Of a stretch of 38,657 nt of DNA, positions 4,757-38,657 are shown piece after piece (position 1 is the stretch's first letter; every line of letters starts with the position of its first letter). Below the pieces are notes generated by a model. That model was given only the letters and a program-made list of their open reading frames with translations. It searched no databases and was not told the DNA's origin. Both the position numbers and the translations under genes were made by a program. This DNA comes from Aureispira sp. CCB-QB1. GTDB taxonomy: Bacteria > Bacteroidota > Bacteroidia > Chitinophagales > Saprospiraceae. Location of the stretch: positions 1 to 38,657 of the forward strand of contig NZ_JHBV01000011.1 in the NCBI RefSeq assembly GCF_000724545.1, in the 5' to 3' direction.

Positions 4757-4773
4757 AATACACCACTGTACCC

Positions 4774-5280
4774 TCAATAATTTTGTTGGTAACGAATTAA
4801 AAATTGTTGAAAGGTGTCGGCAAGAAATGGGCGTTGCTCACTCAAGCGATGGTTGTCTTGAATTAAGTGTACCTTTGCATTGGTATGTTTGCCAAAACGA
4901 ATAGAATGTGAATAAGGAACTATTGTATCTTGCCAACCATGTATGATTTCAATGTTTGTTGTTGTGGGATGATAGTCTTGAATGGGGTAGTTGGGCAAAT
5001 AAAGTGCAGGACACATCAAAAATAGAGCGTCAACGGTACATTTTTGGGCAACAACAGTAGCCACATAACCTCCCATACTGGAACCTACTAAAATAAGGTT
5101 TTGAGTCGGTTGTCCTTCTATGAATTGAAGCAGCAGTTTGACCCGTTCGTTTACATTTTTGCAGTTGGTATAATCCATAGAATAGGTTTCAAAACCCATC
5201 TTTTGAGCGATGGATGATAGCAATTGGATCTTAGCTCCATGCGGTCCACTTTCTTTGCCGTGTGAAAATATAATAAACAT
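4774..5280 (-). CDS. Small alpha/beta hydrolase (YqiA/UPF0227-like)
   Basis: 168 residues, a compact alpha/beta-hydrolase fold without signal peptide. The oxyanion motif SHGKES is at 6-11, the nucleophile elbow GSSMG at 66-70 (Ser68), the acid Asp118 (GWQDTIVP), and the base His144 (DNHRL). This size and layout match YqiA-type esterases or Ser-hydrolases, cytoplasmic, natural substrate unknown. It lies 88 bases downstream of the cytidine deaminase gene on the same strand and may be co-transcribed with it. It converges with the OmpA-family gene with only 17 bases between stop codons and no hairpin there. Confidence 0.8.
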   Translation of the reverse strand: MFIIFSHGKESGPHGAKIQLLSSIAQKMGFETYSMDYTNCKNVNERVKLLLQFIEGQPTQNLILVGSSMGGYVATVVAQKCTVDALFLMCPALYLPNYPIQDYHPTTTNIEIIHGWQDTIVPYSHSIRFGKHTNAKVHLIQDNHRLSEQRPFLADTFQQFLIRYQQNY

Positions 5281-5368
5281 AATATCAATTCGTAGTTCGC
5301 AGTATGTATAGGGGCGTTCTTATTTGTTGTTTGTAATTCTCTTAGTTAGATAATGGAGGGATAAAAAG

Positions 5369-5866
5369 TTATAAGTAAGAAGCATCAAACAACAAGGGTA
5401 AAATATCTTTCACACTTTGTACAACATAAATCTCCCCAATGTCACCCTGCAAAATCAATCGAATATCAGATTGATGTCTGGTCTCATTTTCATAAATTAC
5501 TTGACGACAAGAGCCACAAGGAGGAATTGGTCGATCTATATTGCCTTTGGCACTAATAATGGTTATGGCAACAGCCTTAATAGCAATATTGGGATATTGT
5601 GCTGCCGCCGAAAAAACAGCGTTCCGTTCGCCACACATGGTGACAGGAAATGCGGCATTTTCTTGATTGTTGCCAATTACAATCGCCTCATTGTCCATCA
5701 AAACAGCTGCACCTACTTTAAAATTAGAATAAGGGGCATAAGCTCCTTTTGCCGCTTCTTTGGCTGTAGCCAATAATTGTGCATCTATCTCGCTCAATTC
5801 GGCAATAGATTTAGCAACTTCTATTTCAGATTGCAAAGTGATTTTTTTCATACTGATTTCTTTCAT
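5369..5866 (-). CDS. cdd: Cytidine deaminase
   Basis: 165 residues from the first ATG; a second ATG at 5851 (residue 6, MKKITL) is an equally good start. Converts cytidine and deoxycytidine to uridine and deoxyuridine in pyrimidine salvage. The family marks are YSNFKVGAA (46-54), the zinc/proton-shuttle motif MCGERNA (Cys78, Glu80) and PCGSCRQ (Cys117, Cys120). Three Cys zinc ligands are the tetrameric bacterial type, and the length fits that short class. Followed on the same strand by the small alpha/beta hydrolase. Confidence 0.93.
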   Translation of the reverse strand: MKEISMKKITLQSEIEVAKSIAELSEIDAQLLATAKEAAKGAYAPYSNFKVGAAVLMDNEAIVIGNNQENAAFPVTMCGERNAVFSAAAQYPNIAIKAVAITIISAKGNIDRPIPPCGSCRQVIYENETRHQSDIRLILQGDIGEIYVVQSVKDILPLLFDASYL

Positions 5867-5933
5867 TCCTTAGAATGTTACAAATGAATCGCAAAATATT
5901 CGTTTGGAATTATGGTTTTTTTAATAGTAAAAC

Positions 5934-5941
5934 TACATTTG
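5934..5941 (+). promoter_or_regulatory. Candidate -7 promoter element (TACATTTG)
   Basis: A perfect match to the Bacteroidota primary sigma -7 consensus TAnnTTTG, with a weak TATG (5911-5914) 19 bases upstream in the place of TTTG. It would start transcription about 130 bases before the saccharopine dehydrogenase gene. Confidence 0.45.
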
Positions 5942-6077
5942 TGTATAAAACAGTCCTAATAATAAAATAATAGCTTTTGGGGAAGTCAAGTCGGATAATT
6001 TTAACCAGACAAGAACCCTTTTTATAAAAGCAATAGCCTATAAACTTACAAAAGTTTATAATAAAAATAGTATAAAA

Positions 6078-7457
6078 ATGAAGAAGATATTGATTATTGG
6101 AGCAGGACGTTCTGCAACATCTCTTATCCAATACCTACTAAAACATGCAGCAGCACATAATTGGGAAATTACAGTAGCAGATGCAGACATAGCTTTGGCA
6201 GAAGAGAAGGTAAAAGGACATGATAAAGGAACAGTAGTGACATTTAATGCTTTAGATGCCGAAGAAAGGTTGCCTCATTTGGAAGCAGCAGATTTTGTTG
6301 TTTCTATGCTGCCTGCACATTTGCATATTCATGTTGCAAAAGATTGCTTGCGTTTGGGCAAGGATTTGGCAACAGCTTCTTATGTTTCTCCTGAGTTGAA
6401 AGAATTGCATGAAGAAGTAAAGGGGAAAGGACTAATTTTCTTGAATGAAATTGGTTTGGATCCTGGAATTGACCACATGTCCGCTATGCAGATGATTAAT
6501 AGTATCCGTGCCAAAGGTGGCAAAATTAGCGCATTCTATTCTTATGCAGGGGGATTGGTCGCTCCAGAAAGTGATACAAATCCTTGGCATTATAAATTTT
6601 CTTGGAACCCTCGAAATGTTGTTTTGGCAGGACAAGGTGTTTCTCAATATTTATACGAACATCGTTATCGCCATACTCCTTATCATAGATTGTTTAGCAA
6701 ATCGGACTTAGTTTATATTCCTACAATGGGGTGGTACGATGCTTATCCAAATAGAACATCTCTAAAATACAAGGATTCTTATGGTTTGGATGACATTCCA
6801 ACTATTATGCGTGGAACACTTCGCTACAAAGGATTTTGCAAAGCGTGGGATATTTTGGTGCGTTTAGGGTTGACAGATGATACTTATAAAATGGAATATT
6901 CGGATGACTTAACCTATCGCCAATGGGTGAGAAGTTATTTGTCACCAACTTTAGAACGAGTAGGGTACGGAACATTGAGAACTCAAATTGCCACGCTTTT
7001 TGATTTGAATATGGCTGACGAAGCTTTGGATAAACTAGAGTGGCTGGGGCTGTTTTCTGATGAAAAAATACCTTTAGATGAAGCGACTTCTGCGCAAATT
7101 TTGCAAGAATTATTAGAGCGTAAATGGAAATTAGAGCCTGAAGATAAGGATATGATTTTGATGCAACATGAGGTAGAGTATGAACTAGATCATCAGAAAA
7201 AACGCCATTTGTCTACGTTGATTTTCTATGGAGAAAACAGTTCTAACACGGCTATGTCTAAGTTGGTTGGTTTGCCTTTGGCAATTGGAGTAAAGAATAT
7301 TCTGCTAGGGAATATCACCTCAAAAGGTGTGTTAATTCCAATTACCCCAGAAATTTATGAGCCTGTTATGAAAGAATTGGAAGAACTTGGAGTTGGCTTT
7401 ACATCTATGGATGTAGACTTGGAGTCTTTTAATGAGTATTTCCCAAATGAAATGTAA
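6078..7457 (+). CDS. Saccharopine dehydrogenase family protein (LYS9-like)
   Basis: 459 residues. An N-terminal Rossmann fold with GAGRSA at 8-13 is followed by DADIALAEEK, the VVSMLPAHLH segment and NEIGLDPGIDHMSA, which are characteristic of glutamate-forming saccharopine dehydrogenases. The rest matches the large catalytic/insertion domain (SYAGGLVAPES, PWHYKFSWNPRNVV). Known enzymes interconvert saccharopine with glutamate and aminoadipate semialdehyde using NAD(P). In bacteria this can serve lysine degradation or biosynthesis, or a carboxynorspermidine-type reaction. No partner lysine-ketoglutarate reductase lies beside it, so direction and substrate are open. Cytoplasmic, apparently monocistronic. 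Confidence 0.87.
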   Translation: MKKILIIGAGRSATSLIQYLLKHAAAHNWEITVADADIALAEEKVKGHDKGTVVTFNALDAEERLPHLEAADFVVSMLPAHLHIHVAKDCLRLGKDLATASYVSPELKELHEEVKGKGLIFLNEIGLDPGIDHMSAMQMINSIRAKGGKISAFYSYAGGLVAPESDTNPWHYKFSWNPRNVVLAGQGVSQYLYEHRYRHTPYHRLFSKSDLVYIPTMGWYDAYPNRTSLKYKDSYGLDDIPTIMRGTLRYKGFCKAWDILVRLGLTDDTYKMEYSDDLTYRQWVRSYLSPTLERVGYGTLRTQIATLFDLNMADEALDKLEWLGLFSDEKIPLDEATSAQILQELLERKWKLEPEDKDMILMQHEVEYELDHQKKRHLSTLIFYGENSSNTAMSKLVGLPLAIGVKNILLGNITSKGVLIPITPEIYEPVMKELEELGVGFTSMDVDLESFNEYFPNEM

Positions 7458-25524: not shown

Positions 25525-26388
25525 ATGAAACTAAGTGTTATAGATACAGGATATTTTAAATTAGATGGTGGTGCTATGTTTGGGGTGGTACCTAAGAGCT
25601 TGTGGTCAAAATTAGAGCAACCTGACGAACACAATTTGTGTACTTGGGCAATGCGTTGTTTGTTAGTAGAAACAGCCGACCGAAAAATTATCATTGATAC
25701 AGGAATCGGAAATAAACAATCTGAAAAATTCTTTTCACATTTTCACCCTCATGGTGATGCTACTTTGGTAAAGTCTTTGGCGAACAATGGCTTAACAGTA
25801 GATGATATTACAGACGTATTTTTGACACATTTACACTTTGATCACGTAGGAGGAGCTGTTTTGAAAGATGCAGCTGGGAAATTAATACCAACATTTCCAA
25901 ATGCTACCTATTGGACAAATCAACCACACTACGATTGGGCATTTACACCAAACGCGAGAGAAAAAGCTTCGTTCTTGAAAGAAAACTTTGTTCCTTTGAT
26001 GGAAGAAGGTATATTAAAAATGTTAGAAGCATTGCCCTATGACAAGGTGCTAGATTGGCTGCCTAACTTTGGAGTCGGCTATGCATATGGTCACACAGAA
26101 GCATTGATGACGCCTCGTATTCAGTATCAAGACCGAACCATTATTTATTGCGCAGATTTATTGCCTTCTCCAAGCCACATCAGCATGCCTTATGTGATGG
26201 GCTACGATGTACGTCCTTTGCAAACTTTAACTGAGAAAGAATGGTTTTTGAATAAAGCTGTAGAAGAACAACATATCTTGTTCTTCGAACATGCGCCAGA
26301 AATTGAAGCTTGTACCGTCAAGCGCAACGAAAAGGGGCGTATTGTAGCTGATAAAGTAGGTCGTTTAGCGGACTTTGTTCAATTGTAA
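25525..26388 (+). CDS. MBL-fold metallo-hydrolase (lactonase-like)
   Basis: 287 residues. The metal motif THLHFDHVGG (101-110; His102, His104, Asp106, His107), a further His in YGHTEALM, Asp in IIYCADLLPS and His in FFEHAPEIE complete the two-metal site of the beta-lactamase superfamily. IIIDTGIGNK precedes it. The overall layout is like AHL-lactonase/methyl-parathion-hydrolase type enzymes without signal peptide; hydrolysis of a lactone or ester is likely, exact substrate unknown. Its last 24 bases overlap the end of the pseudouridine synthase gene on the other strand. Confidence 0.88.
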   Translation: MKLSVIDTGYFKLDGGAMFGVVPKSLWSKLEQPDEHNLCTWAMRCLLVETADRKIIIDTGIGNKQSEKFFSHFHPHGDATLVKSLANNGLTVDDITDVFLTHLHFDHVGGAVLKDAAGKLIPTFPNATYWTNQPHYDWAFTPNAREKASFLKENFVPLMEEGILKMLEALPYDKVLDWLPNFGVGYAYGHTEALMTPRIQYQDRTIIYCADLLPSPSHISMPYVMGYDVRPLQTLTEKEWFLNKAVEEQHILFFEHAPEIEACTVKRNEKGRIVADKVGRLADFVQL

Positions 26389-26970
26389 AAGTTTATACAT
26401 TGTTGTTTTGTCTAAGGGACGGACTTCTCCTGGAACCATATCTTGTAGGCTTAAGTCAACAATTTTGGATCGAACTAGACGCAGTGTTGGGAAACCAACA
26501 CTTGCCGTCATTCGACGCACTTGCCTATTTTTACCTTCGATAAGACTAATCTGAAGCCAAGCCGTGGGAATTTCTTTTCGATAACGAATCGGTGGAGTAC
26601 GTTCTGGCAAATTAGGAACGGTATTTAATAAGTGTACTTTAGCTGGCTGCGTACGATATATTTTTTTCTTTAGTTTAATATCAACACCTTGATTTAATTG
26701 TTGAATAGCTTGCTTTGTAGGAATATTGTCAACTTGCACCCAATAGGTTCTCCAGTGTTTGTTTTTAGGATTCAACAGGGCATCTGTCAATTTTTTATCA
26801 TTGGTCAAAATTAACAAACCTTCGCTATCCTTGTCTAACCTTCCAACAGGATAAATATCTTTGTCAAAATCCATTTTCAAATCTGCTAATGTGAGATGAC
26901 TTTCGTGCTCTCTAGAAAATTGAGAAAGCATGCCAAAGGGTTTGTATATAATATAATATTGTGGCGTCAT
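26365..26970 (-). CDS. rRNA large-subunit pseudouridine synthase (RluE/RsuA family)
   Basis: 201 residues. Catalytic Asp46 lies in the family signature PVGRLDKDSEGLLILTND. Starts with YIIYKPFGMLSQF and ends with EGKNRQVRRMTASVGFPTLRLVR, the conserved C-terminal block. There is no S4 domain, as in RluE-like members that modify 23S rRNA. The ATG overlaps the TGA of the upstream TPR-CHAT gene by 4 bases (26967-26970), so translation is probably coupled to it. The 3' end overlaps the convergent MBL-fold gene by 24 bases. The association with a CHAT gene is unexpected for a housekeeping RNA enzyme. Confidence 0.9.
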   Translation of the reverse strand: MTPQYYIIYKPFGMLSQFSREHESHLTLADLKMDFDKDIYPVGRLDKDSEGLLILTNDKKLTDALLNPKNKHWRTYWVQVDNIPTKQAIQQLNQGVDIKLKKKIYRTQPAKVHLLNTVPNLPERTPPIRYRKEIPTAWLQISLIEGKNRQVRRMTASVGFPTLRLVRSKIVDLSLQDMVPGEVRPLDKTTMYKLLQLNKVR

Positions 26971-29900
26971 AGTACAGTTCTACTGCGTTTTTTGTACAAT
27001 AAAAAGCTAATGGACAATATTACTAAAAGAATAGCAATAGAACCAAAAAGCCAAGCATTATTGTAGGTTGGATTTAATTCAATAGGATTATAATTGCCAA
27101 TTTGAACAAAACAAGCCCACAAAGCAGGGTGGGTAGAAATGCCTGTGTGATTGCCCAAATAATCTAATTTAGCTTTTCGAATAGCCTCATCTTTATCCAT
27201 TCCAAGACTTAAGTTGGTATAAAATTTCTTAATCAAATAAGCACTAGAATAATCATTTAAGCTCCAAAGAGTAGAAAGAATACTAGGAACGCCCGCATAC
27301 ATAAAATCTCGACCAAGACTCAAAATGCCTTCTCCTGCTTGATATTGTCCAGTAGCTGTTTCACAGGCAGATAAGACAACCAAGTTCGCATTGAGGTCAA
27401 GTTGTTTGATTTCGTAAGCATATAAAATGTTATCTTCTTGATCATTACCATCTTCAGCAAATGCCAGCCCCGAAAAATCAGAGTAGTTGTTATCAACCAA
27501 ACCATGAACCGCAAAGTGCAAAATATCATAATCCGAAATTTCTTTCTTTAGTTGAGCTTCGGTAGCCAATTCACCTCCCCAAAAGCTCCCTTTGAAATGC
27601 CATTGTAAAAACTCAAGTTCTTTAGAAGCACCTGGTAGGTCTACCAAATGCTTGCGCAGAGTTTGTTCATATGGGTTTCTAGAAGAATGGAGAATTGGGT
27701 GAGCATAGCTAGGAGCAAAACCTAAAATTTGCCCTTGTTGGCTGTTTGGGGTTGGATTTTGACGTTCTATTAAGAGATCTGCCGAGTAATTATAACTGAT
27801 TTTATAATCTAGAAGCAAATAGGGTAGTTGACCATAATCAACTTGTTTGCTGGCTTGATTTCTTTCTGGTGCTACTTCTTGAGTCAAGAAGGTTTCAAAA
27901 GGCAGATAGCTTAAATGACCATCAGGAATAATAATTAGGCGTTGTTTAGAAGGAATTAGACTGTTTTGGAGATAAGTACCATAAAACTTATGCGCGCTCT
28001 CAATAAATTTATTGTAATAATTGGTGGGAGTTTGAGAGGTCGCATGAATGCTTACAAGCGTAGAACGAAAATTAGCAATGTCGGCTTGATAGGTATCTGA
28101 TTTTTGGATGGTGTTCACAAAGGCGGTATCCTTGCTAATGCTAAAGACATAAATGTTTTTAGTGCCTTCAAAATATTCGATTAGGATGGTTTGTTCATCT
28201 ATAGCTACTTGAACTTCTTGAATGCCAGTTGTTTTAAAGGTATGTTTTAGTTGGTAATAAAGGGGGTACTCAGATTCAAAATGATGCAATAGCTCAATAA
28301 GTTGGTGCTTGTATCCAAAAAGTGCGCTGTCTAAGGACTCCATTCGATCAAAATTATCACTCAACTTAGCATCCAAACGCTTTTTGGTAATATCGGCAAT
28401 GCATTTTTGTAAACTTTGCTCTTGTAGGATAAGATGATTTGGGATACTTCCTAAGTTAACTGCCTTTTGAGTTTGGAAGCCTTCTTGCAGTAGCATTGAT
28501 TTGCTACGTTCTGCCAACAAAAATGCTTCATTTAGATAGGCTTTTCGTTTTGTTTGTTGATAAAGCAGCAATGCAATTTGAATGGCTTGTTCAAAAACGG
28601 GGATGGCTCTATCAGTCAACCACCGTTGTTTGGATTTTTTATTTTTTATCCCTTTGCTAATGTACTCCATGGTTTCTGTGGCTAACCTGGCCGTTTGATG
28701 CAAATCACTTTGTGAAACTTGGGGGTATTTTTGAGCATAGAGTGTTCTAAGGTTGTCCATTTTATGCTCTAAAATATCTAAAAAGAGGTTCTTATCGGAT
28801 ATATCCGATAAGATAGGATTGGGAAAACCTTCTTGAGTAGATAAGTTTGGTGATAGGCTTTCTAGAGCTTTTTGGTTGTATTCTAATGCTTTTAGGTGAT
28901 TTTTTTCAGCTTTGGATATGGTGGCTAATAGTGTATAAGAAGATGAAACGATACTACCGTTAGTTCCATATTTTTCTATAGCATTCTTTAACCTTTTAGA
29001 AGCATAATGATTAGCTTGGTTTATATTTCCTTGATCAAGAAAATACAAACTATATCGTTGGTATGTCCCATGTATTCTATAATCATTACCTTGGTTAACT
29101 TTATAAGCTTGATTGATATAATAGATGGTGGAGTCACTTTGTTTTTTGATTCTATAGTAATTGGCTAGATGGTGACAAGCATTGATAAAGTCTTCTTGAG
29201 ATTCTAAATCTAAATGGTCTATTTCTATTAGAATATCTAATCCTTTGAGATACATATCTCTTTCTTGCGTTCTTTTTTTTTGAAAGCCATATGACGTACC
29301 GATATTAATCAATAGATAGGCAATTTTATTGGGATCTTTTGTTTGTGTTTGTAAAGTTAATGACAAAGCCGCTTGATAATAATCCATGGCACTTTCATAA
29401 TCATTTAATTGATCCAATACTACACCAAGATTGTTGTATTCGTATGCTAACATGTAATTAGATGCGACACCACTATTCTTATTATATTTAATCATCGTCA
29501 ATGAACTTTGTATAGCTTTTTCATATTTGCTAATACTAAAATAAACTAAAGTCTGTAGATTATATATATAAGGAATATAATAATTCCGAGGGCGCAATTT
29601 TTTTTCAATTAAGTTTTCTGTTTTTTGCAAGTACTCTAGGGCTAACGTAATTTGTTCACCGAAGTAATATTCAAATGCAATTTTAAGATTGAGGTTAGCC
29701 AATTGCATATACCGTTGCTGCTGAGTGTATAGCGAGACCGCTAAGGTGTAATATTTTTTCATAGAGTCAGGCTCTCCATAAAACAGATAATTATGTGCTA
29801 ATGCAGCATAATAAATCCCTAATATACTGCTATCTGCTTCTTGCTGTTTGCAACTGTCAATAAATGCTAAGGTATGGGCTAATCCTTGCATTTTTAAAAA

Positions 29901-30158
29901 ATGAACGTCAAAAATATCCTCATACAAATCAATAGCAACACTATCTAAGCCGACATCCCAACACCTTTGTTGCAATTGCTGGTACGTTTTGATAGCGGCA
30001 TTAAATCTTTCTTCATTTGCTTGTTGTTTCCCTTTTTTTACCAAACTATCCAATTCAGGAATGTTAAAGGTATATGCCTCTATAGGAGATTGAAATGCCC
30101 AAGAAGAAGTTGAAAATAAAACAAATAATAAAGATAAGTAGATTGGCAAAATCTTCAT
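26967..30158 (-). CDS. TPR-CHAT protein C (secreted, membrane-anchored caspase/separase-like)
   Basis: 1063 residues. Signal peptide at 1-22 (ends SSWAFQ). Tandem TPRs occupy about 30-480 (AIKTYQQLQQRCW, YEYNNLGVVLDQLNDYESAMDYY, ALEYNQKALESL), then a helical linker (EAFLLAERSKSML) and a CHAT domain from about 720. Catalytic His885 lies in LHFAVHGLVD and Cys932 in LVVLSACETATG; the segment GEGILSLGRDFMYAGVPSILSTLWSLND follows. One C-terminal membrane helix (about 1035-1055) precedes a basic tail KKRSRTVL, placing TPR and CHAT outside the cytoplasm. CHAT is a clan CD peptidase fold. Starts 38 bases after CHAT protein B on the same strand and overlaps the pseudouridine synthase gene by 4 bases. 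Substrate unknown. Confidence 0.9.
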   Translation of the reverse strand: MKILPIYLSLLFVLFSTSSWAFQSPIEAYTFNIPELDSLVKKGKQQANEERFNAAIKTYQQLQQRCWDVGLDSVAIDLYEDIFDVHFLKMQGLAHTLAFIDSCKQQEADSSILGIYYAALAHNYLFYGEPDSMKKYYTLAVSLYTQQQRYMQLANLNLKIAFEYYFGEQITLALEYLQKTENLIEKKLRPRNYYIPYIYNLQTLVYFSISKYEKAIQSSLTMIKYNKNSGVASNYMLAYEYNNLGVVLDQLNDYESAMDYYQAALSLTLQTQTKDPNKIAYLLINIGTSYGFQKKRTQERDMYLKGLDILIEIDHLDLESQEDFINACHHLANYYRIKKQSDSTIYYINQAYKVNQGNDYRIHGTYQRYSLYFLDQGNINQANHYASKRLKNAIEKYGTNGSIVSSSYTLLATISKAEKNHLKALEYNQKALESLSPNLSTQEGFPNPILSDISDKNLFLDILEHKMDNLRTLYAQKYPQVSQSDLHQTARLATETMEYISKGIKNKKSKQRWLTDRAIPVFEQAIQIALLLYQQTKRKAYLNEAFLLAERSKSMLLQEGFQTQKAVNLGSIPNHLILQEQSLQKCIADITKKRLDAKLSDNFDRMESLDSALFGYKHQLIELLHHFESEYPLYYQLKHTFKTTGIQEVQVAIDEQTILIEYFEGTKNIYVFSISKDTAFVNTIQKSDTYQADIANFRSTLVSIHATSQTPTNYYNKFIESAHKFYGTYLQNSLIPSKQRLIIIPDGHLSYLPFETFLTQEVAPERNQASKQVDYGQLPYLLLDYKISYNYSADLLIERQNPTPNSQQGQILGFAPSYAHPILHSSRNPYEQTLRKHLVDLPGASKELEFLQWHFKGSFWGGELATEAQLKKEISDYDILHFAVHGLVDNNYSDFSGLAFAEDGNDQEDNILYAYEIKQLDLNANLVVLSACETATGQYQAGEGILSLGRDFMYAGVPSILSTLWSLNDYSSAYLIKKFYTNLSLGMDKDEAIRKAKLDYLGNHTGISTHPALWACFVQIGNYNPIELNPTYNNAWLFGSIAILLVILSISFLLYKKRSRTVL

Positions 30159-30196
30159 ATAGAAAGCTTGGTTCGGTGCTTAAAGAAATAAGAAAA

Positions 30197-33100
30197 CTAT
30201 CGAGCTCTAAATTTAAAAAAGACAAAACTACTTAGAAGCAACAAGCCTCCAAAGACAGCCAAAGCAATATACCATGTCCGATAGCTTTTGTGAATAGGAA
30301 TGCTAGCGTAATCACCTACTTGCACAAAACAAGCCCACAAAGCAGGGTGAGTAGATAAGCCTTCATAATTATCCAAATAATAGAGTTTGGCCTGTTGAAT
30401 GGCTTCGTCCTTTTCCATGCCCAAGCTAAGGTTGGTGTAAAATTTCTCAATGATAATAGAACTAGAATAATCATTGAGACTCCACAAGGTCGTTAACATA
30501 CTAGGAACGCCCGCATACATAAAATCTCGTCCAATACTCAAAATGCCTTCTCCTAATTGATACTTTCCAATTCCTGTTTCACAAGCAGATAAAACTACCA
30601 AATCAGCATTTAAGCCCAACTGCTTGATCTCATACGTATACAAGATATTATCTTCCATTTTGTCGCCGTTTTCAGCCAAAGCTAAGCCCGAAAATTCAGG
30701 GTGTTTGGTATCAACTAAGCCATGAACTGCAAAGTGCAAGATGCTGTAATCTAAAGCTTTTTCTTTGAAAGCGGCTTCGGTTGCAGCACCATTGACCAAA
30801 AAGGTACCATCAAAAGACCATTTTAAAAAATCTAGTTCTCGAATGGCACCAGGAAGTTCTACCAGCTCTGTTCGAAGCTGTTTTTCATAAGGACTTCTCC
30901 ACTTGGGAGCGGTTTTGTTGGCATAGCTAGGAGCCAAAGCTAAGATACGACCATTTTTAGAAGTTTCTTTTTGAAGCAAATGTTCAATCCATAAGGTAGC
31001 AGAATAGTTGTAGTTAATTTTGTAATCTCTAATTAGATATGGGAGAGGAGCAAAATTGGCATTGCTATTGGATTGATTGATATCTAATGGAACTTCTTTG
31101 GTTAAAAAAGCTTCAAAAGGTAAATAGCTCAATCGCCCATCAGGAATGATAATCAATCGTTCTACAGAGGTATTTTGTAAGCTGTTTTTTAAAAATGTTA
31201 GATAGAATTGATGAGCTGTTTCAAGAAACTGGTTGTAACTTTTAGCCGTATTTTGAGCTGCTTCATCCAAACCAATTAAAATAGCTTGAAAATCGGCAAC
31301 ATCTTGGTGGTAAGAATCTGTTCTTGGAATCGTGTGTACGGTAGCTGTCTGCTTGGTAATGCTAAAGGCATAGATATTAGATACGCCTTCAAAATACTCA
31401 ATGAAAGCAGTCTTAGCATCCAGTTGATCTTGTACGGCTTTGATTCCTGTCGATTTGATGGTATATTTTAGTTTATAATATTCAGGATACTCCAATTCAA
31501 ATTGGTGCAATAACATCATAATTTGATCGGTATACTCAAAAATCAAACTGTCTTGAAAAGCCATCATAGCTTCATCCTTGGAGAGTGTAGCATCAAAATG
31601 CTTCTTTTTGGAATCTGATAATAGTTGATACAAAGCTCGCTCACGGTGAATCAGCTCTTGAGGGACTTTGCCAAGCGCAAAAGCCTCATTTTCTTGGAAA
31701 GTACTGATCATTAGCATTGATTTGCTGCGTTCTGCCAAGGCAAATGCTTCGCTTAGGTATTCCGTATTATTTGTTTTTTTATAGATGCTTAGTGCAATTT
31801 GTATGGCTTGCTCAAAAGCAGGAATGGCTTCTTCGTTTAACCAAGCTAATTGAGAAGCTCGACTTTTGATACTTCGATTGATGGATTCTATGGTTTGGGT
31901 AGCTAATTTGGCAGTTTGATATAGGATTTTTTCTGTAGCAATTGGATAATCTTGATTGTAAAGTATATTTAAATACTTCATTTTTTCGTATAAAATAGCT
32001 AGCAAAGTTGTTTTGTCAATTACGTGATCCAATCTAGGATTAGAAAGTCCGTCTTTGTCTGAGAATTCTGTACTTAGGGTACTTAATGCTTCTTGTAGAT
32101 ACTGAAAACCTTGGGTATAATGGCGTTTGGCAAAGGTCGTTCGAGCTAATAATAGATAACTTAGGCTAATTTGAAGATGTTTTGTTCCATAGATTTTTAG
32201 AGCTGCTTCTAACGATTTTTGACCGTACAGTTGTGCATTTTTGAAATCGTGTTTTCGAAAGAAATAATAACCATAATCTCTATACGTTATATTAATTCGA
32301 TAAGAATTATCATAATGAACTTCTAGTGCTTTATGAATATAATAAAGGACAGAGTCTTGGTCAGAGTAACAATCTACTAATAACTGGTAATTGTGAATTA
32401 AATTCTCTTGCAGGTTTTTGTTAAGGGTATCTGCCTTTTCAATCAAGGAGATAGATTGAAGAGCGTATTGTTTTGCTTTTGCTATTTTTCCTTGTTCTTG
32501 AAATATAGATGCTATATTATATAATACATGTGTAATTTCATTTGGGTCATCTATAGTTATGCTTTTTAGGATGCTTAGGGCTTTATGGTAATAGTTTAGT
32601 GCATTATTATTATCTTTGAAACCTTTGTATATAGCAGCAAGATTAACATAGTCATAGGCTAAAGTATAAGGAGTCATAGATTTATTATTTTTACTATGAC
32701 GAATGGTTTTAATCGCACTTTTAATTGCTGTTTCATATAGTCCTAACTCTCTATAGATAGCAGTTTGAGCTGGATATAACGCTGGAGTGTAGAGTTGTTG
32801 AGGGATTAGATAGTTTTTTTCAAAAAATTCTGCTTTGTTTAAATATACTTTTGCTATAGCTAAATGTTCTAAAAAAAAATACTCAATAGCTATATTGATA
32901 TTAAGGTTGGCGGCTTGCAAATACCGTTTTTGTTTATCATAAATAGAAATAGCTAGATCGTAATACTTTTCCATAGAATCTATCTCCCCATAAAACAAAT
33001 AAGCATGGGCAATAGCTCCATAATAAATCCCATTGATGCTACTATCGGTTTCTTGTTGATAACAGCTATCAATAAAAGCCAAAGTTTTATCCAAGGTTTG

Positions 33101-33373
33101 ATTATCGGATAAGATGCAAGCAGTGAAAATGTCCTCGTAAATATCAATGGCAACACTATCCAAGTGATATTCCCAACATTTTTCTTGTAGGGCTTGAAAG
33201 GCTTTTAATGCTTGATGAGGTAAACTATTGCTGACGTGTATTTCTGCATCCAATCTCAATTGGTTGAGTTCTGGAATGGAAAAAATATAAGGTGGTTGGG
33301 GCGACTGGAAGGCAAAACTAGTGTAACTAAAAAAAAAACAACAAAAGAAGATAGCTGTAAACCGATAACGCAT
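30197..33373 (-). CDS. TPR-CHAT protein B (secreted, membrane-anchored caspase/separase-like)
   Basis: 1058 residues with the same architecture as its two neighbours: signal peptide (about 1-22, ending SFAFQ), TPR half with the AYDYVNLAAIYKGFKDNNNALNYYHKAL unit, linker EAFALAERSKSML, and CHAT domain with His884 (LHFAVHGLVD) and Cys931 (VVLSACETGIG), 47 residues apart. C-terminal membrane helix about 1034-1053, tail KFRAR. Closer to protein C than to A (shared CW..LDSVAIDIYEDIF block). First gene of a B-C-pseudouridine-synthase operon; a TATATTTG element lies 83 bases upstream. The 113-residue beta-repeat gene lies upstream on the same strand. Confidence 0.9.
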   Translation of the reverse strand: MRYRFTAIFFCCFFFSYTSFAFQSPQPPYIFSIPELNQLRLDAEIHVSNSLPHQALKAFQALQEKCWEYHLDSVAIDIYEDIFTACILSDNQTLDKTLAFIDSCYQQETDSSINGIYYGAIAHAYLFYGEIDSMEKYYDLAISIYDKQKRYLQAANLNINIAIEYFFLEHLAIAKVYLNKAEFFEKNYLIPQQLYTPALYPAQTAIYRELGLYETAIKSAIKTIRHSKNNKSMTPYTLAYDYVNLAAIYKGFKDNNNALNYYHKALSILKSITIDDPNEITHVLYNIASIFQEQGKIAKAKQYALQSISLIEKADTLNKNLQENLIHNYQLLVDCYSDQDSVLYYIHKALEVHYDNSYRINITYRDYGYYFFRKHDFKNAQLYGQKSLEAALKIYGTKHLQISLSYLLLARTTFAKRHYTQGFQYLQEALSTLSTEFSDKDGLSNPRLDHVIDKTTLLAILYEKMKYLNILYNQDYPIATEKILYQTAKLATQTIESINRSIKSRASQLAWLNEEAIPAFEQAIQIALSIYKKTNNTEYLSEAFALAERSKSMLMISTFQENEAFALGKVPQELIHRERALYQLLSDSKKKHFDATLSKDEAMMAFQDSLIFEYTDQIMMLLHQFELEYPEYYKLKYTIKSTGIKAVQDQLDAKTAFIEYFEGVSNIYAFSITKQTATVHTIPRTDSYHQDVADFQAILIGLDEAAQNTAKSYNQFLETAHQFYLTFLKNSLQNTSVERLIIIPDGRLSYLPFEAFLTKEVPLDINQSNSNANFAPLPYLIRDYKINYNYSATLWIEHLLQKETSKNGRILALAPSYANKTAPKWRSPYEKQLRTELVELPGAIRELDFLKWSFDGTFLVNGAATEAAFKEKALDYSILHFAVHGLVDTKHPEFSGLALAENGDKMEDNILYTYEIKQLGLNADLVVLSACETGIGKYQLGEGILSIGRDFMYAGVPSMLTTLWSLNDYSSSIIIEKFYTNLSLGMEKDEAIQQAKLYYLDNYEGLSTHPALWACFVQVGDYASIPIHKSYRTWYIALAVFGGLLLLSSFVFFKFRAR

Positions 33374-33455
33374 AGTAAGTCACTTTTACTTAGATGAAAA
33401 GAAACAGGGAGAGCATTTGAATTTAGAATTCTATAACGGGAAGCTGTATTGTATA

Positions 33456-33463
33456 CAAATATA
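33456..33463 (-). promoter_or_regulatory. Candidate -7 element (TATATTTG) for TPR-CHAT gene B
   Basis: Read on the minus strand this is an exact TAnnTTTG, placed immediately downstream of the hairpin at 33463-33492 and about 83 bases before the CHAT B start. The last base of the hairpin is shared with it. No clear -33 TTG. Confidence 0.45.
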
Positions 33464-33492
33464 AAGCTATCTCTTGAAAAGGAGATAGCTTT
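33463..33492 (-). terminator. Hairpin between the small beta-repeat gene and CHAT gene B
   Basis: Perfect 11-bp stem AAAGCTATCTC/GAGATAGCTTT with an 8-base loop. On the minus strand it is followed by TTTATATTTG, not a clean T tract, so it may terminate only part of the transcripts. The stem is identical to the one at 37732-37761 in the same relative place of the other module. Confidence 0.7.
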
Positions 33493-33572
33493 GTATATTT
33501 ATTTTGATTTTTATTATTCTTAGTCAGGGAAAAATAGGATTGCTTTTTTTTAACAAACTATTTTTTTGAATT

Positions 33573-33914
33573 TTAAACCAAAACTTCAGCTTCTATCTGA
33601 ACGGCTTGGCTATAAGGGCTGCCAATGGTACCACCAGAACCATCTTTCATCGTTGCTGTCATTTCGTAAGTAAAATCTACAGGATCAGAGCTGAAATTCA
33701 AATTGTCATAAGAAAAAATTCGATCGTCTCCTTCCATCCTTTCAAAATAAAGAACAATATTTTCTGGTTCAGGGTTAGGCTGGTTTGGAATAGTAGGAAT
33801 GTATACTTGAACAGATTTTACAGACTTGCTATTGTCTTCTCCGACTACTACGGTAACCTTTGTTTGGTTAGAGCCTTTGCCAGTTTTTGCTTTCATGTTT
33901 CGTACGTAAGCCAT
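33573..33914 (-). CDS. Single-copy beta-repeat small protein, CHAT module 2
   Basis: 113 residues, no signal peptide or membrane helix. Begins MAYVRNMKAKTGKG, then alternates short beta strands (KVTVVVGEDNSKSVKSVQVYIP), a Pro/Asn-rich link (PNQPNPEPEN), FERMEGDDRIFSYDNLNFSS, FTYEMTATMKDGSGGTIGSP and a final acidic strand. The same order of elements occurs twice in the 224-residue protein at 37796. This suggests an Ig-like or similar sandwich. Family not recognised. It sits upstream of CHAT gene B, separated by a hairpin. Partner, substrate or regulator of the CHAT protein is inference from position. Confidence 0.8.
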   Translation of the reverse strand: MAYVRNMKAKTGKGSNQTKVTVVVGEDNSKSVKSVQVYIPTIPNQPNPEPENIVLYFERMEGDDRIFSYDNLNFSSDPVDFTYEMTATMKDGSGGTIGSPYSQAVQIEAEVLV

Positions 33915-34418
33915 AATTGTTTAAGTTTTCTATGTTTTTAAATGTGTTTTATTTGTTTAGTTCTTAGCTTTATTTTTTAGAACTAAGTGAAAAAATAAGG
34001 TTTGGAATCGATGTGTTTATGATCATAAAGCGACTCCAACTCTGTGAATAGAGTGGAGGTATTATCTGTGGATAAGGCACAAGAGAAGGTGCCAATGAGC
34101 ATATTGTCTCATTGAGTTTTAGTTGGGTACGAGTAGAGAAAATAAGTTGTTGTTGTATAATGGAGTGAAACAATGCACTGCTTGAGTTGAGTGATTGTTG
34201 ATTAACACACCAAAAATATTTCATCAACCATAACAACAAGGGAGTGTTATGATTCTCGTCTAGAAGAAACATAGGGGATATATTTGTATTACAAAACAGT
34301 TTCTAAAATCAATCTTTCCTAATATAAATAGTGGACGAAGGAGAAGATAAATTTTAGAAGTATTAAATTAAACAGGGAAACAGGCAACTTTAAATTAGGG
34401 GTTAAATTGCCTTATACA
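33915..34418. other. Intergenic region between the two CHAT modules
   Basis: About 500 bases. Near the right end lies the post-CHAT-A hairpin (listed separately). Near the left end is an 8-bp inverted repeat TTAGTTCT/AGAACTAA (33957-33964 with 33979-33986), about 45 bases before the small-gene start, possibly an operator. A 100-codon minus-strand frame (33970-34272) has no plausible protein features and I do not call it. Confidence 0.45.
34382..34412 (-). terminator. Hairpin after TPR-CHAT gene A
   Basis: AGGCAA/TTGCCT plus an inner TTTAA/TTAAA with one bulged base, 7 bases after the stop codon of CHAT gene A. The downstream T tract is poor, so this may be a weak terminator. Confidence 0.5.
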
Positions 34419-37400
34419 TTATTTCTGTTTTTTTAAGATAAGTAAAAAAAATGATATTAACAAAAATATAACAGTTCCTATTATATAATAGTTCCAATTT
34501 TTTTTATGATTTATTTTAATGCTAGAGTAGTCACCTACTTGAACAAAAGCAGCCCACATAAAGGGATGGGTATATTCATTAGGATAGTTGTCCAAATAAA
34601 ATAATTTGGCTTGACGAATGGCTTCATCTTTTTCCATCCCTTGGCTTAAATTGTGATAAAATTGTTCAATAATAGCAGCGCCAGATTGATCGTTCAAACT
34701 CCATAATGTCATCAACAAAGAGGGGGCGCCAGCATACATAAATCCACGACCAATACTAACGACTCCTTCACCACGTTGGTATTTGCCAATTCCTGTTTCA
34801 CAAGCACTCAAGACAACCAAGCCTGCTTGAAGCCCTAATTGTTTAATTTCATAGGCATACAAAAAATTATCTTCCTCTTTGCTTTGGTCTTCGGTTAATG
34901 CTAAGCCTGAATACTCTGGGTCTTTTTGATCCACCAAGCCATGCATGGCCAAATGTAAAATACCATGTTTAGGCGCAGATGTTTTGAATATCGTCTCATT
35001 GGCTTGTTGACCAATATAAAATTGACCAGCATATAATTCTTCCAATTTGCTGACTTCATTAACAGCACCAGGAAGCTCGATCAATGTTTTTCTCAATTCT
35101 ACTTCTCTTTTTTCACGCCAATTGGGCATTTCAGTAGGGGCGTAGGAAGGAGCCAATGCCAGAATATTGCCATTGATAATATTTTCTTTTTTAGCCTGTT
35201 GAGCCATTAGAAGCGTCCCTGAATAGTTGTAACTAACCTTATAATCACGCAGCAAATAAGGAAGGGTAGAAAAGTCAGCTCCTTGGTCGGTTCCTTGTTT
35301 TAATAGAGGCATTTCTTGAGTAATCAACACCTCAAATGGCAAATATCCCAACTGCCCGTCAGGGACAATAATCAATCTTTCTGCTGTTTCTTTAACGGCA
35401 TTTTGAATTAGTTTGGAATAAAAATAGTGCGATTTTTTGACAAATGCATTGTAGACAATGCCAGGTTGAGCGGTAAAAGCTTTGATGTCCATCAACGACT
35501 TCTGGAAGCTGAAAATATTTAATTTAAAATCTTCCTCTTTGGCAATGACTTCTACAGACACTCCTTTTTTGGTAATGGCAAAGGCGTAGATATCATTTTC
35601 TCCTTCAAAATACTCAATGAAGATAGTTTTAGGACTTAGGGCATCTTGGATATCTTGAACAGATGCCACAGAAGATTTCATTTTTAAAGTTTTATACTTA
35701 GGGTACTGCTCCTCTAAACTATGTTCTAGTAAATTTAAGTGGTGTTTACAGTCAAAAACAGCAGCTTCCATTTCTTTTTCTTTGGCTGTATTCCCCGCTG
35801 TTTTAGCTTCAAAACGTTGTTTTTCGGCATCTGCCAACGCTTCTTGCAGGTCATCCAATTTTTTTAACAAGCTATCAGGGATACCACCCAAACTAGAGGC
35901 AATCGCTCCTTGCATGGCATCAGCCATTAACATAGACTTACTACGTTCTGATAGCATAAATGCCTCGTTAATGTATTTTTCATCACCTGTTTTATTGGCA
36001 ACTTCCAAGGCAGAAGAAATAGCCGCTTCAAATAAAGGCAAAGCTTGTCGATTTAATGAACCTCGTTTAGAATTAACATCTTTCATCTTTCGGTTCATTT
36101 GCTCCAAGGCTTCTGCGGTCAATTTAGCCGTTCCAAAAACATCATCTCCTGTTACCAAAGGATCGCCTTGCTTGTAAAGTTGTTTAAGGATACTGAGTTT
36201 CCTTCTTAAGGTAGACAATAATTCTCCTTTGTTTAAAACATCTGCCAATTTAGGATTACTCACTCCTTTGGGATCCGAAAAATTTAAGCTAATGGCTTCT
36301 AATGCTTTTTGGGTATTGAACAGAGCTTCTTGGTAGTTGTTTTCGGCTATATTTATGTCACTTAGCGTGTTGTATGAAATATTTAAAATAGTATTTTTTT
36401 CACCATAGGCTTCTTTACTTTTCTGTATTGATTTTAAGGCATATTCTTTTGCTTTGCCAAATTCCTTTTGGGCTAGGGCAATTTGACTTAATATTTTATA
36501 TGTAGTAGATATTCTATAAGGATACTTTTGATTAACATTTTCAGCTTTTTGTAGATAAAATAATGCAGAGTCTAATTGGTTATCGTGTTGATAACAAATT
36601 GTTAGTTTATGATAGTTATTGATATAATCACCTAAAATATCTTTATTTTTTTCTTTGGAAGAATTAAGATAGGACAAAGATTTAAGAAATGCTTCTTTAG
36701 CTGCTTTGTAGTTATTTTGTGCATAGTATGTTGAAGCTATATTGTAAACTAAGCTAGCTGATTCTATTTTAGGATAATTATCAGAAGATTCGATTATATC
36801 TAGAGCCTTTAAGTAATAATCTAATGAATTATTATAATCTTTTAAAGAACTATAAATAGTAGCTAAATTGTTATATTCATAAGCTAAATCTAAGGGATAA
36901 GTAGATGGGGAGTTTTCTAAAGTGCTAATACTAATTAGATTACTAGTTAAAGCTTTATCAAATTTCCCCAAACCATAATAGATTGAAGTTTGAATATTAT
37001 AAATTTCAGGCAAATCTAAGTTTTGAGGCTTTAGTTTGTTTTCTAAGATTGCTTCTGCTTTTTTTAAAAAGAATCGTGCATTTTGTAAGTCATCTAATAT
37101 ATAAAATTCAAGAGCTAGGGTAGCATTTAAGTTTCCTTCTAATAAAAAACGTTGCTCTTTAGAATATAAATTGCAAGCTTTAGTGTAATATTGTTCAAAA
37201 GAATCTACTTCTCCATAATAAGTAAATAAATGGGCTAATGCACCATTATAAATTCCTTCAAAGTTGGGATTATTTTGTTCAAAATAGATGCTATCTATTT
37301 GGCTTTTCTTCTCCTTCATTTTTAAATCATCTCGAAGAATAATAACTGTTAATACTTCTTCATACAAATCAGTAGCCAATGAGTGTAAATTACGCTCAAT

Positions 37401-37604
37401 GCATTTCTTTTGAATTTGTTCATATTGCTGGATGGCTTTATCCCATAAGCCTTCATTCATTGATACATCTGCATTGTTCTTTTCTGCTTTAAGTTCAGCA
37501 GGAAGTTCTTCATGTTGAAAAGTTGGTTTTTGAAAAGAATAGATACCACTAATTAGCAACATAAAAAATAGAAAAGGAATATATGTTTTAAATATAGTGT
37601 TCAT
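34419..37604 (-). CDS. TPR-CHAT protein A (secreted, membrane-anchored caspase/separase-like)
   Basis: 1061 residues. Hydrophobic signal peptide (about 6-23, FLFFMLLISGIYSFQ). TPR half with units such as AYEYNNLATIYSSLKDYNNSLDYYLKALDII, linker EAFMLSERSKSML, a Lys/Glu-rich coiled segment (EALADAEKQRFEAKTAGNTA region), and the CHAT domain: His888 in LHLAMHGLVD, Cys935 in LVVLSACETGIG, then GRGFMYAGAPSLLMTLWSLND. Catalytic spacing is 47, as in B and C. C-terminal helix about 1038-1057 with tail KKQK. The more divergent of the three (no CW in the first TPR). Lies downstream of the 224-residue double beta-repeat gene, 191 bases away, and may have its own promoter in that gap. Substrate unknown. 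Confidence 0.9.
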   Translation of the reverse strand: MNTIFKTYIPFLFFMLLISGIYSFQKPTFQHEELPAELKAEKNNADVSMNEGLWDKAIQQYEQIQKKCIERNLHSLATDLYEEVLTVIILRDDLKMKEKKSQIDSIYFEQNNPNFEGIYNGALAHLFTYYGEVDSFEQYYTKACNLYSKEQRFLLEGNLNATLALEFYILDDLQNARFFLKKAEAILENKLKPQNLDLPEIYNIQTSIYYGLGKFDKALTSNLISISTLENSPSTYPLDLAYEYNNLATIYSSLKDYNNSLDYYLKALDIIESSDNYPKIESASLVYNIASTYYAQNNYKAAKEAFLKSLSYLNSSKEKNKDILGDYINNYHKLTICYQHDNQLDSALFYLQKAENVNQKYPYRISTTYKILSQIALAQKEFGKAKEYALKSIQKSKEAYGEKNTILNISYNTLSDINIAENNYQEALFNTQKALEAISLNFSDPKGVSNPKLADVLNKGELLSTLRRKLSILKQLYKQGDPLVTGDDVFGTAKLTAEALEQMNRKMKDVNSKRGSLNRQALPLFEAAISSALEVANKTGDEKYINEAFMLSERSKSMLMADAMQGAIASSLGGIPDSLLKKLDDLQEALADAEKQRFEAKTAGNTAKEKEMEAAVFDCKHHLNLLEHSLEEQYPKYKTLKMKSSVASVQDIQDALSPKTIFIEYFEGENDIYAFAITKKGVSVEVIAKEEDFKLNIFSFQKSLMDIKAFTAQPGIVYNAFVKKSHYFYSKLIQNAVKETAERLIIVPDGQLGYLPFEVLITQEMPLLKQGTDQGADFSTLPYLLRDYKVSYNYSGTLLMAQQAKKENIINGNILALAPSYAPTEMPNWREKREVELRKTLIELPGAVNEVSKLEELYAGQFYIGQQANETIFKTSAPKHGILHLAMHGLVDQKDPEYSGLALTEDQSKEEDNFLYAYEIKQLGLQAGLVVLSACETGIGKYQRGEGVVSIGRGFMYAGAPSLLMTLWSLNDQSGAAIIEQFYHNLSQGMEKDEAIRQAKLFYLDNYPNEYTHPFMWAAFVQVGDYSSIKINHKKNWNYYIIGTVIFLLISFFLLILKKQK

Positions 37605-37731
37605 AGAAGGAAATTTTGCAATGTCTTAGTCTGATTTTAAGAGAGGAAAATACGCAAAATAGTAAGAATGTTAAATTTTGGAGCAGTATTTCAATTATTT
37701 GACGGCAAAATATCTTTTTAGCTTCAAGAAA

Positions 37732-37761
37732 AAAGCTATCTCATCAATTAGAGATAGCTTT
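37732..37761 (-). terminator. Hairpin between the double beta-repeat gene and CHAT gene A
   Basis: Perfect 11-bp stem AAAGCTATCTC/GAGATAGCTTT, loop ATCAATTA, with a six-T tract on the minus strand. An outer CTTCAA/TTGAAG pair (37722-37727 with 37769-37774) extends it. Same stem as at 33463-33492. Confidence 0.78.
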
Positions 37762-37795
37762 TTATTATTTGAAGTAATAAAATAAAGAATTGAGA

Positions 37796-38470
37796 TTAAG
37801 CTTCCTCTTCAGGTATAGGTTGCACGACTACAATGTGTTCTGAAGCACCAATGGAAATACCTTCAGCATCTTTTAAATCAACAATTACGATATATTCTTC
37901 ATAAATAGCACTACTAGGATCATCAAAAGTCAAAGTATTATCTTTGAATACTTTTTTTCCACCATCGACCTTAGGATCAATTAAGGTTACTTCTGTAGGA
38001 ATAGGTTCTGGTCCAGAAAAATCTGAAAAAATAACCTCTACAGATGCGACTTTATTATCATGGTCACTTACAATTACTGTTTTAAGCCTAAAAAGATCAG
38101 GATTAGCCTTTCGTTGAGTAATAGTAACAGAACGTACAGTTATATCACCAGATGGTTCTACAGTTACTGTTTCTATTAGTGGTTCACCAATGGGTTCATT
38201 ATCTATATTTTTCATGACACTTGTCATTTTATAGGAAAAACCAGCGGCATTATCACTAAAAGTAAGATCGTTATAAACAAAGCGTTTAGTTTCACTTTTA
38301 AGTGTTGAAGCCATATTAGTTGGAGAAGGGGTAGGTTCTTCTGGAGTAATAGGTTCAATAGTAACATCAACGCTATGTACTACATCTTCAAAGTCATCGG
38401 CAACTATTGTGATAGCAGTAGATTCAGATGTTACACCTTGCTTTAATTTTTGACGACGAATAAAAGCCAT
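37796..38470 (-). CDS. Double-copy beta-repeat protein, CHAT module 1
   Basis: 224 residues, no signal peptide. Two copies of the repeat seen once in the 113-residue protein: copy 1 about 1-107 (MAFIRRQKLKQG, DDFEDVVHSVDVTIEP, RFVYNDLTFSDNAAGFSYKM, NEPIGEPLIETVTVEP) and copy 2 about 110-220 (HDNKVASVEVIFSDFSGPEP, VFKDNTLTFDD, YIVIVDLKDAEGISIGAS). The start MAF[IV]R is shared with MAYVR of the small partner. Acidic, beta-rich, Pro-rich links between strands. Family not recognised. Lies upstream of CHAT gene A with a hairpin in between. The gene is complete: the ATG is at 38470 with 187 bases of leader in the window. Confidence 0.8.
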   Translation of the reverse strand: MAFIRRQKLKQGVTSESTAITIVADDFEDVVHSVDVTIEPITPEEPTPSPTNMASTLKSETKRFVYNDLTFSDNAAGFSYKMTSVMKNIDNEPIGEPLIETVTVEPSGDITVRSVTITQRKANPDLFRLKTVIVSDHDNKVASVEVIFSDFSGPEPIPTEVTLIDPKVDGGKKVFKDNTLTFDDPSSAIYEEYIVIVDLKDAEGISIGASEHIVVVQPIPEEEA

Positions 38471-38657
38471 AATTTATTAGGGGTTTGTAAGGCAACGGGG
38501 ACGAAATGTATTGGTGTGTGTTCCTTGTTACCTATTCGTTAAATAAATAATTTAATTTTTTTCTTACATTTTGTAATTGGTTGTGTTGTTAAATGTATGA
38601 TGGAAGTTCATTGAAATAAAAGACAAAAATTTTAAACAAATGCCATTGATACTTAAG
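38471..38657. other. Leader region of CHAT module 1
   Basis: 187 bases up to the window edge. On the minus strand a TACATTTC-like stretch near 38496-38503 is one base off the TAnnTTTG element. Nothing else seen. Confidence 0.3.

Follow-up and report, generated by a model that had tools for sequence, protein, structure and literature searches.

The locus examined here raises the question of what small beta-rich proteins do when they are encoded beside caspase-like proteases of the TPR-CHAT type, and whether the two act together. The window (the whole stretch of DNA that was analyzed, 38,657 nt) is contig C11 of a 7.37-Mb Aureispira genome (G000) from the family Saprospiraceae. On its minus strand, the order is small gene 1, a hairpin, CHAT 1, small gene 2, a second hairpin, CHAT 2, CHAT 3, and an rsuA-like gene (Table 1). 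A sequence-only reading of this DNA had described the order small gene, hairpin, CHAT as occurring twice, with three CHAT genes in all, and this layout was borne out by ORF calls, profile matches, and the hairpins. The present analysis adds to that reading a polymorphism between strains, a contrast in leader and anchor between the two kinds of protein, and an insertion sequence at the end of the window. The same reading had proposed that the small genes encode one or two copies of the same domain, which also held: the 224-aa protein consists of two copies of the 113-aa domain, each sharing 28–36% identity with it.

Table 1. Features of the Aureispira locus in window coordinates, with identities to the same-species genome G100; Ig-like refers to a predicted fold.
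Feature	Coordinates	Strand	Description
Small Ig-like protein 1	37796..38470	-	224 aa, two tandem domains, without signal peptide
Small Ig-like protein 2	33573..33914	-	113 aa, one domain, without signal peptide
TPR-CHAT protease 1	34419..37604	-	1061 aa, signal-peptide-like start, C-terminal TM
TPR-CHAT protease 2	30197..33373	-	1058 aa, layout as CHAT 1
TPR-CHAT protease 3	26967..30158	-	1063 aa, layout as CHAT 1, without own small gene
rsuA-like pseudouridine synthase	26365..26970	-	Right flank, conserved (100% vs G100)
Terminator-like hairpin between small gene 1 and CHAT 1	37731..37762	-	T run after
Hairpin between small gene 2 and CHAT 2	33463..33492	-	Weak T run
Polymorphic block from small gene 1 through the spacer to codon ~350 of CHAT 1	36555..38470	-	61–79% vs G100
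Polymorphic part of CHAT 2, residues ~151–500, mostly TPR array	31874..32923	-	77–93% in 150-bp bins vs G100
Polymorphic patches of CHAT 3, residues ~151–250 and ~351–450	28809..29708	-	71–91% vs G100, 95–100% between
End of multi-copy insertion sequence	38579..38657	.	108 bp upstream of small gene 1

The proteases, the small proteins, and the spacers between their genes

All three large proteins matched the Pfam CHAT HMM (PF12770) with E-values of 8e-49 to 3e-53, in addition to TPR matches, and the profile match together with the His/Cys pair (H888/C935, invariant in the four aligned sequences) places them in the CHAT peptidase family. The intact His and Cys with an equal 47-residue spacing that had been read from the letters was confirmed for all three. 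Since 16 of the 22 other proteins from this genome in which both motifs were matched have the same spacing, it is not special to this cluster. Most of the CHAT proteins examined start with a signal-peptide-like sequence and carry a hydrophobic helix plus a basic tail at the other end, the exceptions being L058 and L059, which lack the end helix, and a few proteins with cut or unclear starts. Hydropathy of the 13 CHATs that belong to this cluster type agrees with a leader and an anchor (the start of the copy in G122 is cut by a contig end), and from these leader and anchor sequences we infer that the cluster CHATs are periplasmic and held in the inner membrane. An AlphaFold prediction of CHAT 1 (mean pLDDT 59.2) modeled the TPR array and not the CHAT domain. 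Searching with CHAT 1 resulted in 30 matching places in the window's genome, 27 of them with an E-value of 7e-62 or better, and among the matches listed in the open literature no described role was found for leader-bearing TPR-CHATs of Saprospiraceae. In G122, a TPR-CHAT query matched 69 places, sometimes several per gene, which is an extreme expansion. At two other loci of the window's genome, L054 (3093–4136) and L055 (6855–7922), a CHAT gene precedes a gene for a leader-bearing protein of ~350 aa; the two CHATs are related paralogs, the two leader-bearing proteins look alike by eye, and this is perhaps another CHAT-partner pair.

The small domain is predicted to be an Ig-like sandwich without a family name. 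An AlphaFold model based on a four-row alignment has seven strands (pLDDT 91.9, pTM 0.83), and sequence searches with Pfam, NCBIfam, PHROGs, PADLOC, and the PDB returned nothing credible. Isoflavone reductase was rejected as a relative, as its two PDB sequence matches (E 0.001–0.006) were partial and judged to be chance. When the model was compared with PDB structures, generic Ig-like folds and SoxY were retrieved, none at E ≤ 0.001, and a viral structure library yielded three matches (E 2e-4 to 1e-3, TM 0.39–0.50), namely an uncharacterized phage protein, an entry named as the N-terminal domain of a PhoD-like phosphatase, and one entry without a name. A hydrophobic leader was found in none of the 11 small proteins examined. 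An in-frame stop codon lies 6 nt before the ATG of small gene 1; such a stop is found 6–15 nt before the ATG in 8 of the 11 genes and at −66 and −105 in two others, and the remaining gene (in G001) is too close to a contig start for an upstream stop to be judged. Read by eye, the homolog in G039 has a lipoprotein-like leader and both homologs in G660 have signal-peptide-like starts. The window's genome has only two small genes, both at this locus, in a search to an E-value of 1.

A hairpin was present in all nine complete spacers that were folded, including the two in the window, and in one additional spacer cut by a contig end. Upstream of CHAT 1, the block at 37645–37679 (TTTAAC ... CGTATTTT) shows by eye few changes in G001, G003, and G100 and is possibly a promoter belonging to CHAT 1 itself; no counterpart was seen by eye before CHAT 2. 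In the leader of small gene 1, a AATAGGTAA-type element at 38527–38536 likewise shows by eye few changes in G003, G006, G100, and G122, the last of which belongs to another genus. The final 79 bases of the window are present at eight places in the genome, at least seven of which are contig ends, and the window's contig thus ends at a multi-copy insertion sequence, which near small gene 1 seems to be flanked by an 8-bp repeat. Given its position upstream of that gene, the insertion sequence may alter expression in this strain.

Distribution of the gene pair

Small-gene matches were obtained in seven of the nine genomes of the genus. Across the family, 10 of 398 genomes had such matches, namely these seven, G039, G122, and, marginally, G249. 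At the level of the class, matches came from 4 of 395 genomes, which comprise that of the window, two with marginal matches, and G660 (E 5e-18). All nine small genes from the genus whose downstream sequence could be read (two each in the window, G100, and G003, and one each in G001, G002, and G007) are located directly upstream of a CHAT gene on the same strand; contig ends truncate the loci of G006 and G122. The loci of the genus share flanking genes and therefore represent one ancestral arrangement, not nine independent cases. In G122, the small gene runs off one contig end and the cognate CHAT gene starts another contig in the matching orientation, so that the two are probably adjacent. This CHAT protein scored 800 bits, with the next best at 447, and the neighboring genes differ from those in Aureispira.

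The cluster CHATs form one clade (13 of 13, SH-aLRT 100) in a tree of 59 proteins, for which 79 rows were collected, 20 were dropped as not being CHAT proteins, and the contig-split copies of G006 and G122 were counted. The best CHAT score was at least 680 bits in the eight genomes with a leaderless small gene, at most 475 bits in the two genomes of the genus without one (G004 and G005), and 214 in G039, which has the lipoprotein-like homolog. G005 has an empty site, where the rsuA-like gene adjoins the 265-aa gene that flanks the cluster elsewhere; the cluster site was not found in G004. The pairing that had been suspected between small gene and CHAT is thus real, in that all eight genomes with a leaderless small protein hold this CHAT subclade. 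The sequence-only reading had also considered that the beta-repeat might be found widely without CHAT neighbors. This applies to 3 of the 12 readable genes (one in G039 and two in G660, both from other genera), which are all leader-bearing and have no CHAT gene on the stretch examined, and does not apply to the other 9. The locus L163 (G000:C12) in the window's genome holds PAAR-like, spike-like, tube-like, and sheath genes, named by eye except for the sheath, and this set resembles a contractile injection system.

Polymorphism between two strains

The polymorphism comparison was made between two conspecific genomes, that of the window and G100. The flanks of the cluster are 99–100% identical, including the side with the rsuA-like gene; in the upstream flank, 6.9 kb are reported at 100% and the last 617 bases at 98.9%. 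From the start of small gene 1 to about codon 350 of CHAT 1, the DNA identity is 61–71%, with 79% in the last 150-bp bin, after which CHAT 1 is 96% identical and then 99–100% identical from residue 400 on, catalytic domain included. The catalytic parts of all three CHAT proteins are 99–100% identical to those of G100. The small-1 proteins of the two strains share 52% identity, and the small-2 proteins share 94%, differing near the loop that joins strands 1 and 2 and at one further site. In module 2, the divergence peaks in small gene 2 and in CHAT 2, with 94–97% identity between them, which is itself below the background. Among 150-bp bins of the cluster CHAT genes, 17 of 63 fell below 93%, all within the first nine bins (450 codons), compared with 2 of 407 in 20 other CHAT orthologs (Fisher p 2.5e-14, for bins that are not independent). 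These controls were 20 of 26 loci of the window's own genome compared with G100, all except L054–L059, and have a median identity of 99.5% and a lowest identity of 98.0%. Both low control bins are in L049 (G000:C20, CHAT gene at 3910–6726 of the locus), where inner bins have identities of 0.85 and 0.92; this gene may be a second polymorphic CHAT. A 500-bp flank bin below 93% was found at 7 of the 20 control loci, indicating that there are other variable or rearranged spots in this genome pair.

The dS within the block is near saturation (about 0.8 to 2 where defined), and the block therefore has the appearance of an allele that was imported or has long been kept, as opposed to a product of recent mutation. 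As dN is lower than dS in every dN/dS window with both values defined and above zero, there is no sign of diversifying point selection. Mapped on the predicted structure, the variable residues of CHAT 1 show no clear preference for either helix of the TPR hairpins. Small gene 1 of the window is 82% identical over 674 nt to that of G006, which is another species, vs 66% over 458 nt to the conspecific allele, so that cassettes appear to be exchanged. Residues 1–350 of CHAT 1 have 61% amino acid identity with the conspecific protein and 60% with that of G003, and from residue 701 to the end the values are 100% and 75%, respectively. Gene conversion from a paralogous donor was considered, and no donor was found among the top matches listed from the loci examined. 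For CHAT 2 and CHAT 3, an assembly artifact is unlikely, because the patches are inside the contig and the genes stay open; for module 1, whose upstream side is broken by the insertion sequence, such an artifact is possible.

A candidate recognition locus and its alternatives

As judged from sequence comparison, our preferred reading, tentative and with a probability approaching even, is that this is a polymorphic recognition locus, in which the CHAT effector would be constant, the TPR sensor variable, and the Ig-like partner matched to that sensor. Each TPR-CHAT would be exported and remain attached to the inner membrane through its C-terminal helix, such that the TPR solenoid and the caspase-like domain face the periplasm. 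The N-terminal TPRs would be the variable part that reads the target and the CHAT half the constant effector, and the Ig-like protein would be the matched partner that binds the TPRs at the N-terminus and holds the protease or sets its state, which would be off when the two match and on with an unmatched or foreign ligand, presumably for recognition of self and non-self or of invaders. With such a matched partner, a small gene and an N-terminal cassette would be best inherited as a set; alleles would differ between lineages, with homologous recombination as the means of exchange. The location of small gene 1 inside the replaced block and its joint presence and absence with the CHAT gene point to the Ig-like protein as a partner of the TPR front. 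Of the roles of substrate, inhibitor, or sensor that had been offered for the small protein, that of sensor or partner fits, as small gene 1 and the N-terminus of CHAT 1 differ together between the strains, and those of substrate or active-site inhibitor fit less well, since the small protein has no export signal and the catalytic half is hardly changed. Without a signal peptide, the small protein would be expected to encounter a CHAT of the periplasm in one of two ways only: by analogy, it may either bind the CHAT before export, like a staphostatin, or leave by another route, like IdsD. Against the preferred reading, CHAT 3 is variable although it has no small gene of its own. In addition, the loci of the genus are orthologous, so the co-occurrence there may be one event. 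In a mirror-tree analysis of nine pairs (G122 was left out because its N-terminus is missing), small-protein distances correlated about equally with those of CHAT residues 25–350 (r 0.85) and 721–1030 (r 0.81), and this analysis was therefore rejected as a discriminator between the N- and C-terminal parts.

The TPR-CHAT of the type III-E CRISPR Craspase (Csx29) is similar in having a TPR array followed by a CHAT protease and a genetically linked partner, but it works with a crRNA-guided nuclease, whereas leaders, membrane anchors, and an Ig-like partner are found here. The partner of Craspase, gRAMP/Cas7-11 of type III-E, is a very large protein; no other ORF above 691 aa, and thus no such partner, was found within the window. 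In bacterial gasdermin systems, a pore-forming gasdermin is encoded adjacent to a protease; the small proteins here had no match in Pfam, NCBIfam, or PADLOC and their fold matches are Ig-like, which does not assign them to this type. The combination of a variable front part with an unchanging effector marks recognition proteins such as the myxobacterial kin receptor TraA, which resembles the cluster CHATs in having a hypervariable domain in a conserved exported protein and mosaic alleles (PMC3820747). TraA is a cell-surface protein with a PA14-like variable part (PMC3820747), whereas in the cluster CHATs it is a TPR array that varies, joined to a caspase-like domain. In the two strains compared, the locus does have a strain-variable putative recognition region in a conserved background, as in kin recognition.

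If the Ig-like protein were a cytoplasmic guard that blocks prematurely folded CHAT before export, the pair would resemble staphopain and staphostatin or the C10 proteases of Bacteroides with Bfi and Bti, in which a small beta protein is likewise encoded beside an exported cysteine protease (PMC3462683). The absence of a signal peptide, the small size, and the adjoining protease, which is probably exported, all agree with this arrangement; staphostatins are believed to work inside the cytoplasm, genes for staphostatin-like inhibitors adjoin those of C10 proteases in Bacteroides, and the leader-bearing homologs of G039 and G660 recall the leader-bearing Bti inhibitors (PMC3462683). However, those proteases are papain-like and their inhibitors have another fold (PMC3462683); here the model is a seven-strand sandwich with Ig-like folds and SoxY as best PDB matches and, judged by fold matches alone, not a lipocalin-like barrel. 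A guard should also track the catalytic domain, which is hardly changed while the small-1 proteins have diverged along with the TPR region, and a genome with about 27 strong CHAT matches has just the two small genes of this cluster, each separated from its CHAT gene by a hairpin. We consider this explanation unlikely. If the Ig-like protein were carried into the periplasm of neighboring cells, for example by a contractile injection system, and the TPR-CHAT there read whether it is self, this would account jointly for the variable receptor, the matched polymorphism, and the lack of a signal peptide. The logic would be analogous to that of Ids in Proteus, a two-protein identity system decided by a match, in which IdsD travels by a T6SS and must be bound by IdsE (PMC6682164). 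The window's genome does have a contractile-injection-system-like gene set, but the T6SS sheath VipB was found in none of the nine genomes. Phage_sheath_1 matched all nine, five of them over the cut-off, and the two that lack the module match below it; these genes have no linkage to the module, and a process of this kind appears quite improbable.

That the TPR array reads only invaders (a phage, bacteriocin, or prey molecule), with the small protein as a chaperone or stabilizer, would account for the variability of CHAT 3 in the absence of a partner gene. CHAT domains have been named as effectors of conflict systems in multicellular bacteria, where a variable sensor part is likewise combined with a CHAT effector (PMC10907252); those systems are diversified by retroelements (DGRs) (PMC10907252), whereas here long allelic blocks differ. 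PADLOC had no match for the three CHATs and two small proteins scanned, and the place of small gene 1 in the exchanged block is left unexplained, so we give the invader-only sensor a low probability, if not a negligible one. Finally, the region may simply be prone to recombination, with the small gene as a passenger and no functional link. One tract covers both genes of module 1, whose joint exchange may thus be due to tract length, and other variable spots exist in the genome pair. This does not fit well with the separate peaks in small gene 2 and CHAT 2, the joint absence of both genes in G005, the cognate pair among other neighbors in G122, or the 20 control CHAT genes that are nearly unaffected, and we regard the lack of a functional link as decidedly doubtful.

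A more specific version of the polymorphic recognition locus, which we consider rather unlikely, is bacterial allorecognition, in which an identity protein of Ig-like fold would be paired with a TPR receptor in the periplasm that has its own caspase-like executioner, and their matched alleles would be maintained and traded between species. Genomes of Saprospiraceae can hold tens of leader-bearing TPR-CHATs, and this locus singles out one CHAT clade with a linked partner, in which the polymorphism suggests a reading part as opposed to an acting part. Through allele swaps, the idea of a caspase-like sensor in the periplasm can be put to a direct test here, and the locus could connect relatives of caspases in bacteria with the recognition of self and non-self. 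If the allorecognition reading is true, the locus would be to bacteria, as far as its logic goes, what incompatibility genes are to fungi.
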